51,556 nucleotides of DNA from a virus. Made by a program: the position numbers and the translations under genes. The notes under the pieces were generated by a model, which saw only the letters and a program-made list of their open reading frames with translations, was not told the DNA's origin and ran no database searches. This document shows positions 16,650 through 21,991 of this stretch, one piece after another (the stretch's first letter is position 1; the number at the start of each line of letters is the position of its first letter). The stretch spans positions 1 through 51,556 of the IMG/VR virus record IMGVR_UViG_3300044681_000823. One strand, given 5' to 3'.

Positions 16650-17318
16650 ATGGCAATTAATACCCCTAATAATAGTATCTACATTAATGAGGGTCTTTGG
16701 CTCAAGTCAACTAATGATGTAATGAGTTTAATGGATTTATCCATTTCATCCTGTTTTGCCATTGATATAAAAAAACCACCAATTAAAGGAGATGAGTCTA
16801 TTTTTCTCTTAGCATATGAAGCAGTTCTTCCAGGAACTTCTTTGGAACTGGCTCAAGTTTCTGGAGATGTTCAGGGGATAGTAGAACAATATCCAATAAA
16901 AAGAGTTTACCCTCAGGTGGATGTTAGTTTTTATATTAGAAGATCATATGATACCATTAAGTTTTTTGAGTCTTGGATTGAAAAAATTGCACCACTCCAA
17001 GGAAGGTCTATTGATAAAGGATCTTTTATTAAATTTAACTACCCTGAAGTATATGAATGTGATATTAATATTATAAAATATGAACGTGATATGAGACCTT
17101 CAGCACAAAGGTTATCTAAAGGATCTTCTGAAGGAATCATTAATGATCCTAAATCCACTACATATACATTACTTAATGCTTATCCAATTAATATAATTTC
17201 TATACCTGTGTCCTATGAACAATCAAGTATTTTAAGAACCACTATTACTTTCAATTATGATAGATATGTTTATCATACTCATAAAGGAAGATCAATAACT
17301 CCAGTTCAGGGAACATAA
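16650..17318 (+). CDS. Tail-tube-fold virion protein (gp54-like candidate)
   Basis: A 222-residue protein. The second half (FNYPEVYECDINIIKYERDM, then YTLLNAYPINIISIPVSYEQ and RTTITFNYDRYVYH) has the strand-rich pattern of tail-tube-fold proteins such as gp19, gp48 and gp54 of T4. Size is larger than gp19 and smaller than gp54. Given gp48 nearby and gp26/gp51 next, gp54 (initiator of tube polymerisation) is the best guess, but I am not sure. Plus-strand transcription starts here, divergent from gp4. Confidence 0.6.
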   Translation: MAINTPNNSIYINEGLWLKSTNDVMSLMDLSISSCFAIDIKKPPIKGDESIFLLAYEAVLPGTSLELAQVSGDVQGIVEQYPIKRVYPQVDVSFYIRRSYDTIKFFESWIEKIAPLQGRSIDKGSFIKFNYPEVYECDINIIKYERDMRPSAQRLSKGSSEGIINDPKSTTYTLLNAYPINIISIPVSYEQSSILRTTITFNYDRYVYHTHKGRSITPVQGT

Positions 17319-17346: not shown

Positions 17347-18078
17347 ATGCCATTACCAGTTGTTGCAACTCCAACTTATGAGTTGACTTTACCTTCAAAT
17401 AAAAAGACAATTAAGTATAGACCTTTTCTTGTTAAGGAAGAAAAAATTCTTATTCTTGCTATGGAGAGTGGTGATTCTAAAGAAATCACCAATGCAGTCA
17501 AAAATACATTAAAGGATTGTATTTTGACAAGAGGCGTGAAGATTGATAGTCTCCCAAGTTTTGATATTGAATATTTGTTTTTGCATATTAGAGCAAGATC
17601 AGTTGGAGAATCTGTAGAGTTGATAGTTACTTGTCCAGATGATGGAGAAACACAAGTTGAAACTACAGTTAATATTGATGAAATTGAAGTTGTAATTCCA
17701 GAAAATCATAAGTCTGAAATTAAAGTTGATAATAATATCACTATCAAGATGAAGTATCCATCACTTCAAGAGTTTATTGATAATAACTTTGATTTCTCTG
17801 GACAAAATAGTAGCAAAGATACTATTGAAAAATCATTTGATATAGTTGCTTCTTGTGTGGATATGGTCTACACAAAAGAAGAGTCTTGGTCTTCTGCTGA
17901 TGTTACTAAAAAAGAATTGATTGATTGGCTTCAGACATTAGATGCTAATCAATTTAAAGATGTTGAAGAATTTTTTAACACAATGCCCAAACTTTCTTAT
18001 ACTTTAAAAGTTACAAATCCTAAAACTGGAGTAGAGAGTGAATTAGTTCTGGAGGGTTTGTCCAGTTTTTTCGGATAG
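17347..18078 (+). CDS. gp26: gp26-like baseplate hub/assembly protein; frame-0 product of a frameshift pair
   Basis: A 243-residue protein with the T4 gp26-type start (TYELTLPSNKKTIKYRPFLVKEEKILILAME), KNTLKDCI, a beta segment with CPDDGETQ and a helical C-terminal part, matching the T4 baseplate gp26 family. Its last codons are TCC AGT TTT TTC GGA TAG, which contain the slippery heptamer T TTT TTC four codons' reach from the stop. A -1 shift would fuse it to the 18072-18257 frame and give a 303-residue protein. Gp26 and gp51 are both needed for hub assembly in T4. Confidence 0.85.
   Translation: MPLPVVATPTYELTLPSNKKTIKYRPFLVKEEKILILAMESGDSKEITNAVKNTLKDCILTRGVKIDSLPSFDIEYLFLHIRARSVGESVELIVTCPDDGETQVETTVNIDEIEVVIPENHKSEIKVDNNITIKMKYPSLQEFIDNNFDFSGQNSSKDTIEKSFDIVASCVDMVYTKEESWSSADVTKKELIDWLQTLDANQFKDVEEFFNTMPKLSYTLKVTNPKTGVESELVLEGLSSFFG
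18066..18072 (+). other. -1 ribosomal frameshift site T TTT TTC
   Basis: In the gp26 frame the codons are AGT TTT TTC GGA TAG. The heptamer T TTT TTC fits the X XXY YYZ rule, and after slipping both tRNAs still pair (TTT TTT). Frame -1 then continues as CGG ATA GTT CTT for 61 codons. No obvious downstream pseudoknot is seen by eye. Confidence 0.7.
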
Positions 18079-18257
18079 TTCTTGGTCATGAAGATTTGGA
18101 GTCTTATTATAGGACAAATTTTGCCTTGATGCAGTACCATAAATACTCTTTGACTGAGATTGAAAATATGATTCCTTGGGAACGTGAAATTTATTTGGCA
18201 CTTCTTGAAAATCACATCAGAGAGGAAGAGGAAAAAGCAGCAAAGGCAAATAGATGA
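18072..18257 (+). CDS. gp51: gp51-like hub assembly domain, expressed by -1 frameshift from gp26
   Basis: The -1 frame encodes RIVLGHEDLESYYRTNFALM then QYHKYSLTEIENMIPWEREI and a charged tail ending at TGA 18255-18257. The frame is open only from 18042, and between there and the protein-like part there is no ATG or GTG; the first TTG (18096) and ATG (18129) would cut off the conserved start. The downstream gene overlaps its stop by ATGA. Position after gp26 is that of T4 gene 51, though T4 gp51 is much longer (about 249 residues). Confidence 0.7.
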   Translation, partial: RIVLGHEDLESYYRTNFALMQYHKYSLTEIENMIPWEREIYLALLENHIREEEEKAAKANR

Positions 18258-19975
18258 CCCCAGAAGATTTTAATTATTTTCAATCAAGAGTAACCAGATT
18301 TATTTCGGGATCAAGTTCAGGAATTAAATTTGGTTCTTCTGTTGCGCCAAAATATACAAGACTCTCAAGCATCATTCCAAAGAGGGCATTGCCCCAACAA
18401 GTATTAGAAACTATACAAAGAAAAACAACATCTGATTCAGATGAAGGAATAGAAGCATCTCCAAGAGGAATATCTGCATTAGGTAAAGTTACATTAAATC
18501 TTGAGCAGACAAAAAATAATTTAGAAAAGATACTTGAAATTATTGCAGAAGATTATAAAACTACTAGAGAAACAAATAGAAAAGAATCTGATGAACTGAG
18601 AAAAAGAATTGCAAATAGAGGCAGAATATTTGGTAAGAAAGAATTAGGAGACAAAAAATCTGATGTTCTTGGAATAGTTAAAAAATATGTAGGATCATTC
18701 TTTAGTGGTGCTGGTGGTGCCATCAGAGGTCTTGCTATGTTTAACCTTTTGCAAGGGTTGTTGAGTGGAGATCCATCAAAAATTATAGGACCTTTACTTG
18801 GGATTGGATTGACTTATGTTCCAAGTATTATAGGTAGTGTTATTGGTGGTGTTGTTGGTAGTATTGGAACTGGTTTAGTAGGAAGAATGTTTGGTGGTGG
18901 TGCAAGAGCAGCAGCACCAGCAGCACCAGCAGCAGGTACAGCAGCAGGAGCATCAAGACTTGGTGGGTTAGGACGTCTTGGAGGTAGAGCAGCATTAGTT
19001 GGAGGAAGTCTTGCATTAGCAAGTAGTTTGTTTAATAGACCTCAAGAAGATACACAGCAGCAAAGATTAGAACAACTTACTGAGCAACAAAAAGGATTAG
19101 TTGCACCTTCTGCAATAGGTCCTCTTCCTGAAAATGAACTGCAAAGATTTGATAGATTGAATAAAAAGTTTGAGGAAGCACTTGATTTTTTGATGGGGAA
19201 AAGAGGTGGGCAGCAACAGCAACAAACCTCTGGAGGTGGAGGAGGTGGTGGAGGTTCTCCTACTCCACCTGGACAACCTATTTCTGGACCAGCCCCAGCA
19301 GAAATAAATGCTCTAATGTCAGCAATTTCTGCAGGAGAAGGTGGACTAGAATCAGTTAATAAAATTGGAGCACTTCCAGGACTGTCACAAATGACTATAG
19401 ATCAAGCTATAGCAAAAGTGGAAGGATTGAAGGCACAAGGAAAAACTTCAGGAGCTATGGGAAATATGCAGCAAAAGTCTCAATTTTTAAGAGAAAGAGC
19501 TATAGCAGCAGGATTGGACCCAAGCACTGCATTATTTAATGAGGAAAATCAATATAAAATTAATAGAGCATACCTTGCAAGTTTATTTTCAGGTGGAGAA
19601 CAACAAATAGTTGATTTAATTAGATCTGGAAAAATTAATGATGTTGTTAATAAATTAAAAGGTGTTTGGCCATCTTTACCTGGAGGCAGTCAACAAAATG
19701 TTCATACCTCATCTTTTTATCAAAAATTTGATTCTTATTTAAAACAATTAGGAGTTGGTTCAATTTCGTCACCAACACCTATTCCCCCATCACCAAGAAA
19801 TATTCCATCTCCACAATCACAAACTCCAAATATTACATTAGTTCCTGTTACTTCTGGACAACAATCTCCTTCCTCGGATGCTGCTATTGGAAATGACGTG
19901 GTTCCTGCAATTGATACTACATATCCAGAAAACTTCTTAGCATTGTATTCTAAACTCATCTATCAAATTGTGTGA
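18254..19975 (+). CDS. Long tail/hub protein with coiled coil, hydrophobic segments and lysozyme-like domain (tape-measure candidate)
   Basis: A 573-residue protein. Residues 1-130 are charged and helical (LEQTKNNLEKILEIIAEDYK coiled coil). About 140-210 are strongly hydrophobic Gly-rich helices (GLLSGDPSKIIGPLLGIGLT, SIIGSVIGGVVGSIGTGLVG), as in tape-measure proteins. After low-complexity Ala and Gly/Gln linkers, residues about 350-470 (LMSAISAGEGGLESVNKIGA ... LDPSTALFNEENQYKINRAY) look like a lysozyme/transglycosylase-type domain. It directly follows gp26/gp51. I infer a tail-internal protein that also digests cell wall on injection. Confidence 0.65.
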   Translation: MTPEDFNYFQSRVTRFISGSSSGIKFGSSVAPKYTRLSSIIPKRALPQQVLETIQRKTTSDSDEGIEASPRGISALGKVTLNLEQTKNNLEKILEIIAEDYKTTRETNRKESDELRKRIANRGRIFGKKELGDKKSDVLGIVKKYVGSFFSGAGGAIRGLAMFNLLQGLLSGDPSKIIGPLLGIGLTYVPSIIGSVIGGVVGSIGTGLVGRMFGGGARAAAPAAPAAGTAAGASRLGGLGRLGGRAALVGGSLALASSLFNRPQEDTQQQRLEQLTEQQKGLVAPSAIGPLPENELQRFDRLNKKFEEALDFLMGKRGGQQQQQTSGGGGGGGGSPTPPGQPISGPAPAEINALMSAISAGEGGLESVNKIGALPGLSQMTIDQAIAKVEGLKAQGKTSGAMGNMQQKSQFLRERAIAAGLDPSTALFNEENQYKINRAYLASLFSGGEQQIVDLIRSGKINDVVNKLKGVWPSLPGGSQQNVHTSSFYQKFDSYLKQLGVGSISSPTPIPPSPRNIPSPQSQTPNITLVPVTSGQQSPSSDAAIGNDVVPAIDTTYPENFLALYSKLIYQIV

Positions 19976-19978
19976 TAA

Positions 19979-21991
19979 ATGGACCCAACAGTAGTAAGTA
20001 GACCAAAGGTTAATATCACACCAAAGATTACTAAAATTGGTAATCTTGCACAGTCTGCTGAAGAAATCAGAAAGACTTCTTCAAGGTTAAGAAAAACTTT
20101 TGAGAAAGGAACATATCAAAAGAAAACACAGTTATCAGTTCTCAACAGATACAAAAAAAGATTAGAATCAATACAAAAACAAAATGATAAAAAGTTTACA
20201 AAGAAGCAAAGAGTAAAAATAAAATTGCCAGAGATTAAAAAGTTTGCAGGAAGTTTTTTCACTCCTGGTGGTGGTGCAAATGACCCATTAAAATCAATAG
20301 GTGCATTGGCAGCATTTAATGCACTGAGAAAAGGTGCAAAGGGTGATGTGTTAGGAGCAATAGGTCCTGCATTAGTAGCAGCAGGAATATTTTTTGGTCC
20401 TTCTTTATTAAAAGGTGGCGTTAATTCTATTAAAAGAAGTCTAGGATATTCATCAGGAACTTCTGGAGCAAGAGCAATTATTCCTCCAACTGGAAATAGA
20501 ACTGTTTTTGGAGGAATCACTTCAAGGTTGGGTAGAGTTGGGAGTCCAACTGGAACTCCTGGTATCAGGTCTAATATTGGATTGACTGCTAGACAATTTC
20601 AAGCAGGGGCTTTTATGCAAACTCCTGGAGCCAGGGCTGCCTTCCCTGTAGCACTTCCAGGGACACCTTCTACTGCAGAAAAATTGGGTGGGGCTGCTCA
20701 AAATGTTGCTAATAGATTTGGAGCAAGGGGAGGTGCTGTAGCAGCAGGATCTGCCACTTCAAGAGCTGGTGGATCTATTGCTGCAAAAGCAGGAGGTGTT
20801 GGTGCAAGAGCAATTCCATTATTAGGAACCGCATTTAATATTGGACTTTCTGCTTATAGATTTAGTCAAGGTGATGCTGTTGGGGGAATTTTGTCTGCTT
20901 TAAGCGCAATCCCAATTGTGGGTTGGGCAGCTCTTGGTGTAGATTTGGCAAGAGAATTTGGAGCATTTGATGGAACTATTTTAGGAAGAAGGGGTCAAGA
21001 CAGATTAAAACAACAAACAGAAAAACAAAAAGCATTAGTAGAAAGAAAAGGTGAAGGAGGAACTCTTACATTTGGAAAAACTTTAAACAGATATGAAAGA
21101 GTAGTTAATAAATTTGAGGAGTTTGCCAAAAATTTTAAAGGTGCTATGGGGATGGGAGGAGAACAAACTGGAGTTATAGAAACAGGAAATAGAGCAGTTC
21201 CAACTGGAATAGAACTTCAAGATTTGGAGGCAACTGGGGGAGAATCTCCAGGAGCACCAGACTCTCCTTATGGTCCAAGAAGAGGTAGGATGCATCAAGG
21301 AAATGATTATTTTAAACCAGTTGGAACACCTATTAGTGTTGTTCAACCAGGAACTGTGACAGTTGCAGATATGAATTATGACCCAACTGGATGGGGAGCA
21401 GTCGTAGAAATTAGACATCCAGATGGTTCTTTAAGCAGATATGCACATTTAAGTAAAATAAATGTAGCTCCAGGAAGTGAAGTAGTTCCAGGACAAGTTA
21501 TTGGACTAACAGGAGGAGCTGCTGGAGCTCCAGGTTCTGGAAATTCTGAAGGTCCTCATTTACATTTTGAATATGAAAATGCATCTGGAAGAGTTGACCC
21601 AACATCAGTAGCACCTAAAATTTTTAGATTTGGTGGTAATGTTAGGGTCAAACAATCAGGGCAACAATCATCAAGATTATCTTCAGAGGCACAGCAAATA
21701 CAACAGACTGGAACATACACTGTTGCTGGAGTTACTTATGATGTAAAAACAGGTGCTCCAGTGACTTCAACTCCACAAATATCAAGATCACCAAGACCAG
21801 CAAGAGGTATTCAATATTATCCTTCTTATGATTCTAGAGGGCAAATGGACCAAGTAATTCCATATCCAGTAGTTCAACAGCAGCAAATGTCTCAGGGACA
21901 ATCATCCTCTTCTATGATAATGTCTGGACCATCAGAACAAGAGTTGTTAAATAGTTTTTATAAGAGAGTTCTTCTCAATACAGTAGCATAA
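19979..21991 (+). CDS. Long tail/hub protein with M23 peptidase domain
   Basis: A 670-residue protein with the same plan as the preceding gene: basic coiled-coil N-terminus (RLRKTFEKGTYQKKTQLSVL), hydrophobic Ala/Gly segments (about 105-330) and a C-terminal enzyme. Residues about 425-540 are an M23 (lysostaphin/LytM) peptidase: H439 and D443 in MHQGNDYF, then H527 and H529 in PHLHFEYE complete the zinc site, with WGAVVEIRHPDGSLSRYAHL between. It should cleave peptidoglycan cross-links during infection. The two proteins share the N-terminal and extreme C-terminal style (SKLIYQIV, FYKRVLLNTVA), suggesting duplication. Confidence 0.85.
   Translation: MDPTVVSRPKVNITPKITKIGNLAQSAEEIRKTSSRLRKTFEKGTYQKKTQLSVLNRYKKRLESIQKQNDKKFTKKQRVKIKLPEIKKFAGSFFTPGGGANDPLKSIGALAAFNALRKGAKGDVLGAIGPALVAAGIFFGPSLLKGGVNSIKRSLGYSSGTSGARAIIPPTGNRTVFGGITSRLGRVGSPTGTPGIRSNIGLTARQFQAGAFMQTPGARAAFPVALPGTPSTAEKLGGAAQNVANRFGARGGAVAAGSATSRAGGSIAAKAGGVGARAIPLLGTAFNIGLSAYRFSQGDAVGGILSALSAIPIVGWAALGVDLAREFGAFDGTILGRRGQDRLKQQTEKQKALVERKGEGGTLTFGKTLNRYERVVNKFEEFAKNFKGAMGMGGEQTGVIETGNRAVPTGIELQDLEATGGESPGAPDSPYGPRRGRMHQGNDYFKPVGTPISVVQPGTVTVADMNYDPTGWGAVVEIRHPDGSLSRYAHLSKINVAPGSEVVPGQVIGLTGGAAGAPGSGNSEGPHLHFEYENASGRVDPTSVAPKIFRFGGNVRVKQSGQQSSRLSSEAQQIQQTGTYTVAGVTYDVKTGAPVTSTPQISRSPRPARGIQYYPSYDSRGQMDQVIPYPVVQQQQMSQGQSSSSMIMSGPSEQELLNSFYKRVLLNTVA

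Follow-up and report, generated by a model that had tools for sequence, protein, structure and literature searches.

How is gp51 translated in a virus whose gp51 reading frame has no start codon ahead of its protein-like part? The question arises in a virus record of 51,556 bases (the window), which may be a fragment and contains a single match to gp26. Our answer, held with a probability of about 95%, is that a −1 programmed ribosomal frameshift probably yields a short and a long tail assembly chaperone from one locus.

The gp26–gp51 junction

All features described here lie on the plus strand. The gp26 frame (ORF1, positions 17347–18078) encodes 243 amino acids, and its matches to Pfam family PF12322 (T4_baseplate) and phrog_150, together with hhalign comparison to T4-type gp26, suggest that it is the short, TAC-N like form of the chaperone. 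It ends with the codons AGT (18064–18066), TTT (18067–18069), TTC (18070–18072), GGA (18073–18075) and TAG (18076–18078). An in-frame heptamer T_TTT_TTC, the putative −1 shift site, thus occupies positions 18066–18072, with the gp26 stop one codon past it, inside the overlap of gp26 with the −1 frame (18042–18078). A Shine-Dalgarno-like GGAGGG (18051–18056), proposed as a 5′ stimulator from its pairing with the anti-Shine-Dalgarno (anti-SD) sequence, precedes the heptamer by 9 nt.

From stop to stop, the open −1 frame spans 71 codons (18042–18257). No ATG, GTG or TTG occurs in it before a TTG at 18096, within the conserved part. Counted from the heptamer, the extension (gp51, the C-terminal domain of the long form; 18072–18257) comprises 61 codons (18072–18254) and a TGA stop (18255–18257), so that the fusion would have 303 amino acids. 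The extension was assigned by its matches to phrog_634 and phrog_150 and by hhalign comparison with the T4-type gp51 C-terminus. The gp51 stop overlaps the ATG of the next ORF at 18254 (ATGA). An initial annotation of this DNA was correct in its description of the gp26 end with the in-frame heptamer, of a −1 frame open from 18042 with no start codon ahead of its protein-like part, and of a 61-residue gp51 with an ATGA overlap.

Sequences compared

Junctions were compared in 391 sequences. Five scans of virus contigs supplied 369 loci, and 21 loci from named phages and the window made up the rest. Two of the scans took the closest sequences by similarity and the others were added for wider range; some contigs are present twice. 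The named phages were T4 and 20 others, taken from the 724 phage records in which gp51 was matched. gp26 is present in 391 of 391, and for most sequences it was the criterion for fetching. The sequences are related and unevenly sampled, the searches favour close relatives, and the counts are not independent.

A separate gp51 ORF (ORF2) was detected in 376 of the 391 sequences, in the −1 frame every time and never in another frame. Left out of the junction counts were three in-frame fusions and 12 sequences in which no ORF2 was detected. For 10 of these 12, the available stretch stops inside gp26 or no more than 48 bases beyond it; the other two were inspected by eye. Of the 376, 91 repeated a 120-nt junction already present and were removed, which left 285 distinct junctions, 16 of them from named phages. 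A further 30 of the 285 were removed as duplicate downstream stretches, leaving 255 sequences in 51 similarity clusters.

Conservation of the putative shift site

All 285 distinct junctions with a separate gp51 ORF carry the motif T_TTT_TTN, the last base of which is C in 251, A in 22 and T in 12. The heptamer invariably starts 6 nt ahead of position 1 of the gp51 (ORF2) profile, wherever the gp26 stop lies. In 264 junctions 10 bases separate the heptamer start from the stop; in the other 21 the distance is 7, 13, 16, 31 or 34 bases. Because the offset to the gp51 profile is constant while the distance to the stop varies, the position of the heptamer tracks the protein junction and not the stop. 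In five sequences (L319, L345, L364, L379 and L179) the distance from heptamer start to gp26 stop is 31 or 34 bases; their short form would therefore be 7 or 8 residues longer than usual, the added residues coming from the stretch that also encodes the start of the extension.

As a control, the other 56,672 codon steps of these ORF1 genes were searched for in-frame TTTTTT, which turned up at 23. All 285 junctions use TTT for the first Phe of the heptamer, whereas the commonest codon accounts for 52–95% at other conserved Phe columns, and Phe elsewhere in these genes is encoded by TTT 1,992 times and by TTC 782 times. Other Phe-Phe pairs read T_TTT_TTN in 17 of 294 cases, and a conserved pair at alignment columns 300–301 is spelled freely, with TTC as its first codon in 157 sequences and TTT in 119. 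Judged by codon choice, the putative shift site is conserved at the nucleotide level beyond what the protein needs.

Heptamer loss in close relatives, which the initial annotation had named as a finding that would speak against frameshifting, was not found among the distinct junctions; the one loss is in a distant phage. This is Vibrio phage 207E48.1 (L181), one of the two sequences inspected by eye, which has no in-frame heptamer and carries TAATGATG at the gp26 stop, near 2130–2170. Because the heptamer is absent and TAATGATG stands in its place, we propose a possible switch to re-initiation in this phage. In the other, Stenotrophomonas phage YB07 (L178), a single codon separates T_TTT_TTC from the stop, and an apparent diverged −1 ORF follows.

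Reading frame and start codons of gp51

Immediately past the heptamer, codon 1 of the −1 frame encodes Arg in 223 of 285 junctions, using CGG, CGC, CGT and CGA, while the gp26 codon that overlaps it varies (Gly in 100, Ala in 73, Val in 48, others in the remainder). The second −1 codon, which overlaps the gp26 stop in most junctions, encodes Ile, Leu or Val in 284. Since codons 1 and 2 are conserved as protein, selection on the −1 frame protein begins at the heptamer, before the usual ATG positions. A stop codon of the −1 frame lies directly ahead of the heptamer in 45 of the 285.

No ATG, GTG or TTG is present up to codon 8 after the heptamer in 154 distinct junctions; the other 131 have one. 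Codon 4 is ATG in 93 junctions, codon 7 in 43 and codon 3 in 18. By cluster, a start codon is found in no member of 25, in every member of 22 and in some members of 4, and in the window's own cluster 20 of 46 sequences have none up to codon 8. For the 93 codon-4 ATGs, the interval 3–20 nt upstream pairs weakly with the anti-SD sequence (mean −1.25, median 0).

These ATGs raise the alternative that gp51 is a separate small protein, made by translational coupling after the gp26 stop, with the heptamer incidental. gp51 is annotated as its own gene in KVP40, P-SSM2 and S-PM2, and the heptamer-free Vibrio phage with TAATGATG would also fit. Such coupling would, however, lack a candidate start in more than half of the distinct junctions and in all members of 25 of the 51 clusters. 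It would not account for protein conservation of the −1 frame from codon 1, and it leaves the 285 heptamers unexplained. The codon-4 ATGs have on average no Shine-Dalgarno sequence of their own, the strong Shine-Dalgarno-like site lying more than 20 nt before them. A separate gp51 start was therefore rejected as a general explanation, and we consider it very unlikely; re-initiation is possible in the 131 junctions with a start codon up to codon 8. The conserved gp51 start in relatives that the initial annotation had named as contrary evidence was thus not found, and of the two features whose conservation it proposed to check by alignment, the heptamer is conserved throughout and the missing start in part, in 154 of the 285.

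Frameshifting and internal initiation are not exclusive. A frameshift could give the long form, with a free gp51 domain made in addition in ATG-bearing lineages, and the 131 junctions with a possible start codon would allow this. Against it, Met at codon 4 (93 junctions) alternates with Leu (178), as expected at a hydrophobic position, and a Shine-Dalgarno sequence at the proper distance is on average missing. We regard this addition to the frameshift as improbable.

RNA signals flanking the heptamer

When anti-SD pairing was scanned over offsets −150 to +30 in the 285 junctions, it was strongest at the Shine-Dalgarno-like site, with a mean of −7.0 kcal/mol against a mean of −0.97 (s.d. 1.11) across offsets; the GGAGGG segment of the window gives −9.8. 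The best pairing in the 25 bases upstream of the heptamer averages −7.23, compared with −5.63 ± 0.09 after synonymous resampling. For the 51 cluster representatives the values are −7.04 kcal/mol and −5.46 ± 0.19, and 0 of 500 resamplings were as low. The element is strong in junctions with a start codon (−7.9, n = 131) and in those without (−6.7, n = 154). Glu at this site is encoded by GAG in 32 and by GAA in 6 of 51 sequences, the rest having other codons; elsewhere GAG is used 241 times and GAA 453 times. What exceeds the prediction from codon choice is the presence of the element, and as a stimulator it is putative. The E. coli dnaX gene has a Shine-Dalgarno-to-heptamer spacing similar to the 9 bases of the window.

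The element also bears on a second alternative, in which RNA polymerase slips on T6, so that some mRNAs gain a base and encode the same fusion with no slip by the ribosome. Each of the 285 junctions has the run of at least six T that this would use. Polymerase slippage would favour longer T runs, however, and the run is exactly six in 273 junctions, seven in 9 and eight in 3; moreover, the Shine-Dalgarno-like element, which acts on ribosomes, is held at a fixed spacing. We consider polymerase slippage extremely unlikely.

Ribosomal frameshifting is often helped by structure 3′ of the slip site, and downstream RNA was more stable than RNA at a place 300 bases upstream (mean z −1.8 to −2.0 against −0.3, all sequences). 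Taken per cluster, the difference persisted across the 51 clusters (z −1.37 against −0.18 for the control, which drew on up to three members of each; Wilcoxon p 4e-05). In several clades the downstream RNA exceeds shuffled sequence in stability and shows clear hairpins, with stems that start 5–7 bases past the heptamer and sequences that are unrelated. A 3′ hairpin conserved across the whole family was considered and rejected: RNAalifold gave no whole-family structure for the 255 distinct downstream sequences, the hairpins being found clade by clade. The window's cluster (46 sequences) showed no consensus downstream structure, with a mean z of −1.31. For three downstream stretches of the window itself, z is −0.75, +0.19 and −0.19, no gain in stability over shuffled sequence; the usual 3′ stimulator is thus weak or lacking there.

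A wider picture can be drawn, to which we give a slim chance. One slippery core would have persisted across the frameshifting T4-like phages as helper signals turned over by lineage, the Shine-Dalgarno-like element nearly everywhere and unrelated hairpins about 5 nt downstream in some clades, with a free gp51 domain as a third product in ATG-bearing lineages.

Relationship to T4 gp26 and gp51

The sole significant Pfam match of the window's gp26 is to PF12322 T4_baseplate (E 1.1e-74). It also matches phrog_150 at positions 5–232 of 282 (E 1.2e-80), and the −1 frame extension matches phrog_634 (E 7.6e-31) and positions 227–280 of phrog_150 (E 2.2e-10). On the same profile, T4 gp51 covers positions 13–280 and T4 gp26 positions 14–235. 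The phrog_150 family therefore includes both parts as one chain.

Profiles of T4-type gp26 and gp51, each a small alignment of three T4-type phages, were compared with the cyanophage ORFs using hhalign. T4-type gp26 matched ORF1 with a probability of 99.1%. T4-type gp51 matched ORF1 through its N-terminal part (96.9%) and ORF2 through its C-terminal part (96.9%), and matched T4-type gp26 at 97.4%. No match was found between ORF2 and T4-type gp26 (0.1%). At the level of sequence, the predicted short and long forms share an N-terminal domain, as expected of TAC-N and TAC-NC proteins, and T4 accordingly has one copy of each length, in separate genes that lie in opposite directions.

gp51 is fused in frame, as a single gene for the N- and C-terminal parts, in three of the 391 sequences: T4, PEi20 and phiAS4 (L162, L167 and L170). 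The short gene in these three phages is opposite to the long one, beside a baseplate wedge gene. Their short and long copies have come apart. The T4-like chaperones gp26 and gp51 are thus of the same gene family as the window pair, and differ in arrangement: T4 has two divergently placed genes, whereas the window cyanophage has one locus with a −1 shift. Frameshifting is reportedly conserved in several T4-like groups, T4 being said to use separate genes 26 and 51.

Neighbouring genes and predicted fold

Directly upstream of gp26 is a tail tube protein gene (16650–17318; PF23849, E 1.8e-15; phrog_45 tail tube). The ORF that overlaps the gp51 stop (18254–19975, 573 amino acids) is a candidate tape-measure-like gene by its position and its similarity to the following ORF. 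That ORF (19979–21991, 670 amino acids), a second such candidate, has an M23 peptidase domain (PF01551, E 6.3e-22). The two are 29% identical over 140 residues near their N-termini (E 3e-07), and appear from this similarity as if duplicated. Neither matches the T4 gp29 profile (hhalign probability 0.2% for both, with profiles of only 2 and 3 sequences). Some phage profiles matched by the 670-residue ORF are named tape measure, and nearly all of its phage profile matches lie within the M23 domain. Its counterpart in P-SSM2 has a weak match to a tape measure profile (E 0.0021), and the phiM12 and RHph_I1_18 records label an ORF shortly downstream as tape-measure-like. The initial annotation placed two tape-measure-like proteins directly after the junction; the two ORFs and their mutual similarity are confirmed, and their identity as tape measure proteins is not borne out by the T4 gp29 comparison.

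The predicted structures have a mean pLDDT of 88.5 for gp26 and 79.9 for gp51. A Foldseek search with the gp26 model against BFVD returned phage baseplate hub proteins, and against the PDB it gave no match at E 0.001. A second structural comparison of gp26 placed 3fgx (Z 8.1), the HK97 tail assembly chaperone 2ob9 (Z 7.8) and yqbN (3klu, Z 7.2), presumably an XkdN-type chaperone, in its first three rows, all confined to the N-terminal 96 residues. The HK97 alignment extends over 84 residues with an rmsd of 4.2, within the N-terminal 86 of 243 residues, and Z values below 8 can, by the tool's own note, be reached by models without a clear match. By sequence, gp26 had no solved-structure relatives at E 10, and the ten matches of gp51 (best E 0.17) were taken as chance helix matches. 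In the comparison with known chaperones that the initial annotation called for, the HK97 protein ranks second and the Foldseek search of the PDB gives no match at E 0.001; for a chaperone-like fold of gp26 the Z values are suggestive only.

Proposed mechanism and known systems

We propose that gp26 and gp51 are one gene with two readings. The majority of ribosomes would end at TAG and release the 243-residue gp26. Some would pause at T_TTT_TTC with GGAGGG paired to their 16S rRNA, slip one base back and re-pair on TTT TTT. Slipped ribosomes would then read 61 more residues in the −1 frame and complete the 303-residue gp26–gp51 fusion. The two products would act as TAC-N and TAC-NC, holding the tape measure protein and recruiting tail tube subunits.

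The lambda gpG/gpGT pair has a heptamer different from T_TTT_TTC, and the window's gp26 differs from it in having T4_baseplate as its only significant Pfam match. The predicted likeness lies in the organization, a short and a −1 frameshifted long product from one locus that act on the tape measure protein, as set out for lambda in the Atkins review; the word cyanophage is absent from the part of that review covered here. Another phage family, Vandenendeviridae, has a tail assembly chaperone locus in which, according to the Adele paper, the −1 frame is open in all 56 alleles with an invariant GTTTTT, compared with T_TTT_TTN here.

Such chaperones in T4-like phages were described by Vladimirov, Gautam and Davidson (Virology 2022;566:9-15), as reported in passages of two citing papers. 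The PRFect paper states that some T4-like phages do not frameshift and instead carry a short gene alongside a longer fusion gene, and the Adele paper, citing the same work, says that TAC-N genes in T4-like phages contain poly-T slippery sequences as −1 signals. The proposal of the initial annotation that gp26 and gp51 are the equivalent of G/GT is supported, and agrees with this literature as the citing papers convey it. Since those papers report frameshifting for T4-like phages, the idea is correct and its general form is already in print; on their account the case is solid rather than new. What is contributed here is breadth (285 distinct junctions), the Shine-Dalgarno-like element and the clade-specific hairpins, and no priority is claimed.

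The long form is absent or wrongly started in several of the cyanophage records opened here. In P-HM2 (L171), gp51 is annotated as a 30-residue stub (1924–2016), and it is unannotated in DSL-LC03, S-CAM1, S-WAM2, ACG-2014d and S-SSM4 (L164, L168, L169, L174 and L175). A protein that is probably central to tail building is therefore mis-described in marine and freshwater viruses. The large alignment of junctions is a resource for testing which stimulators set the ratio of the two products. The separate gp26 and gp51 copies of T4-type phages do what one frameshifting gene probably does in their relatives, making this a clean case of shift versus duplication, in which the same problem of two product levels has been solved both ways.
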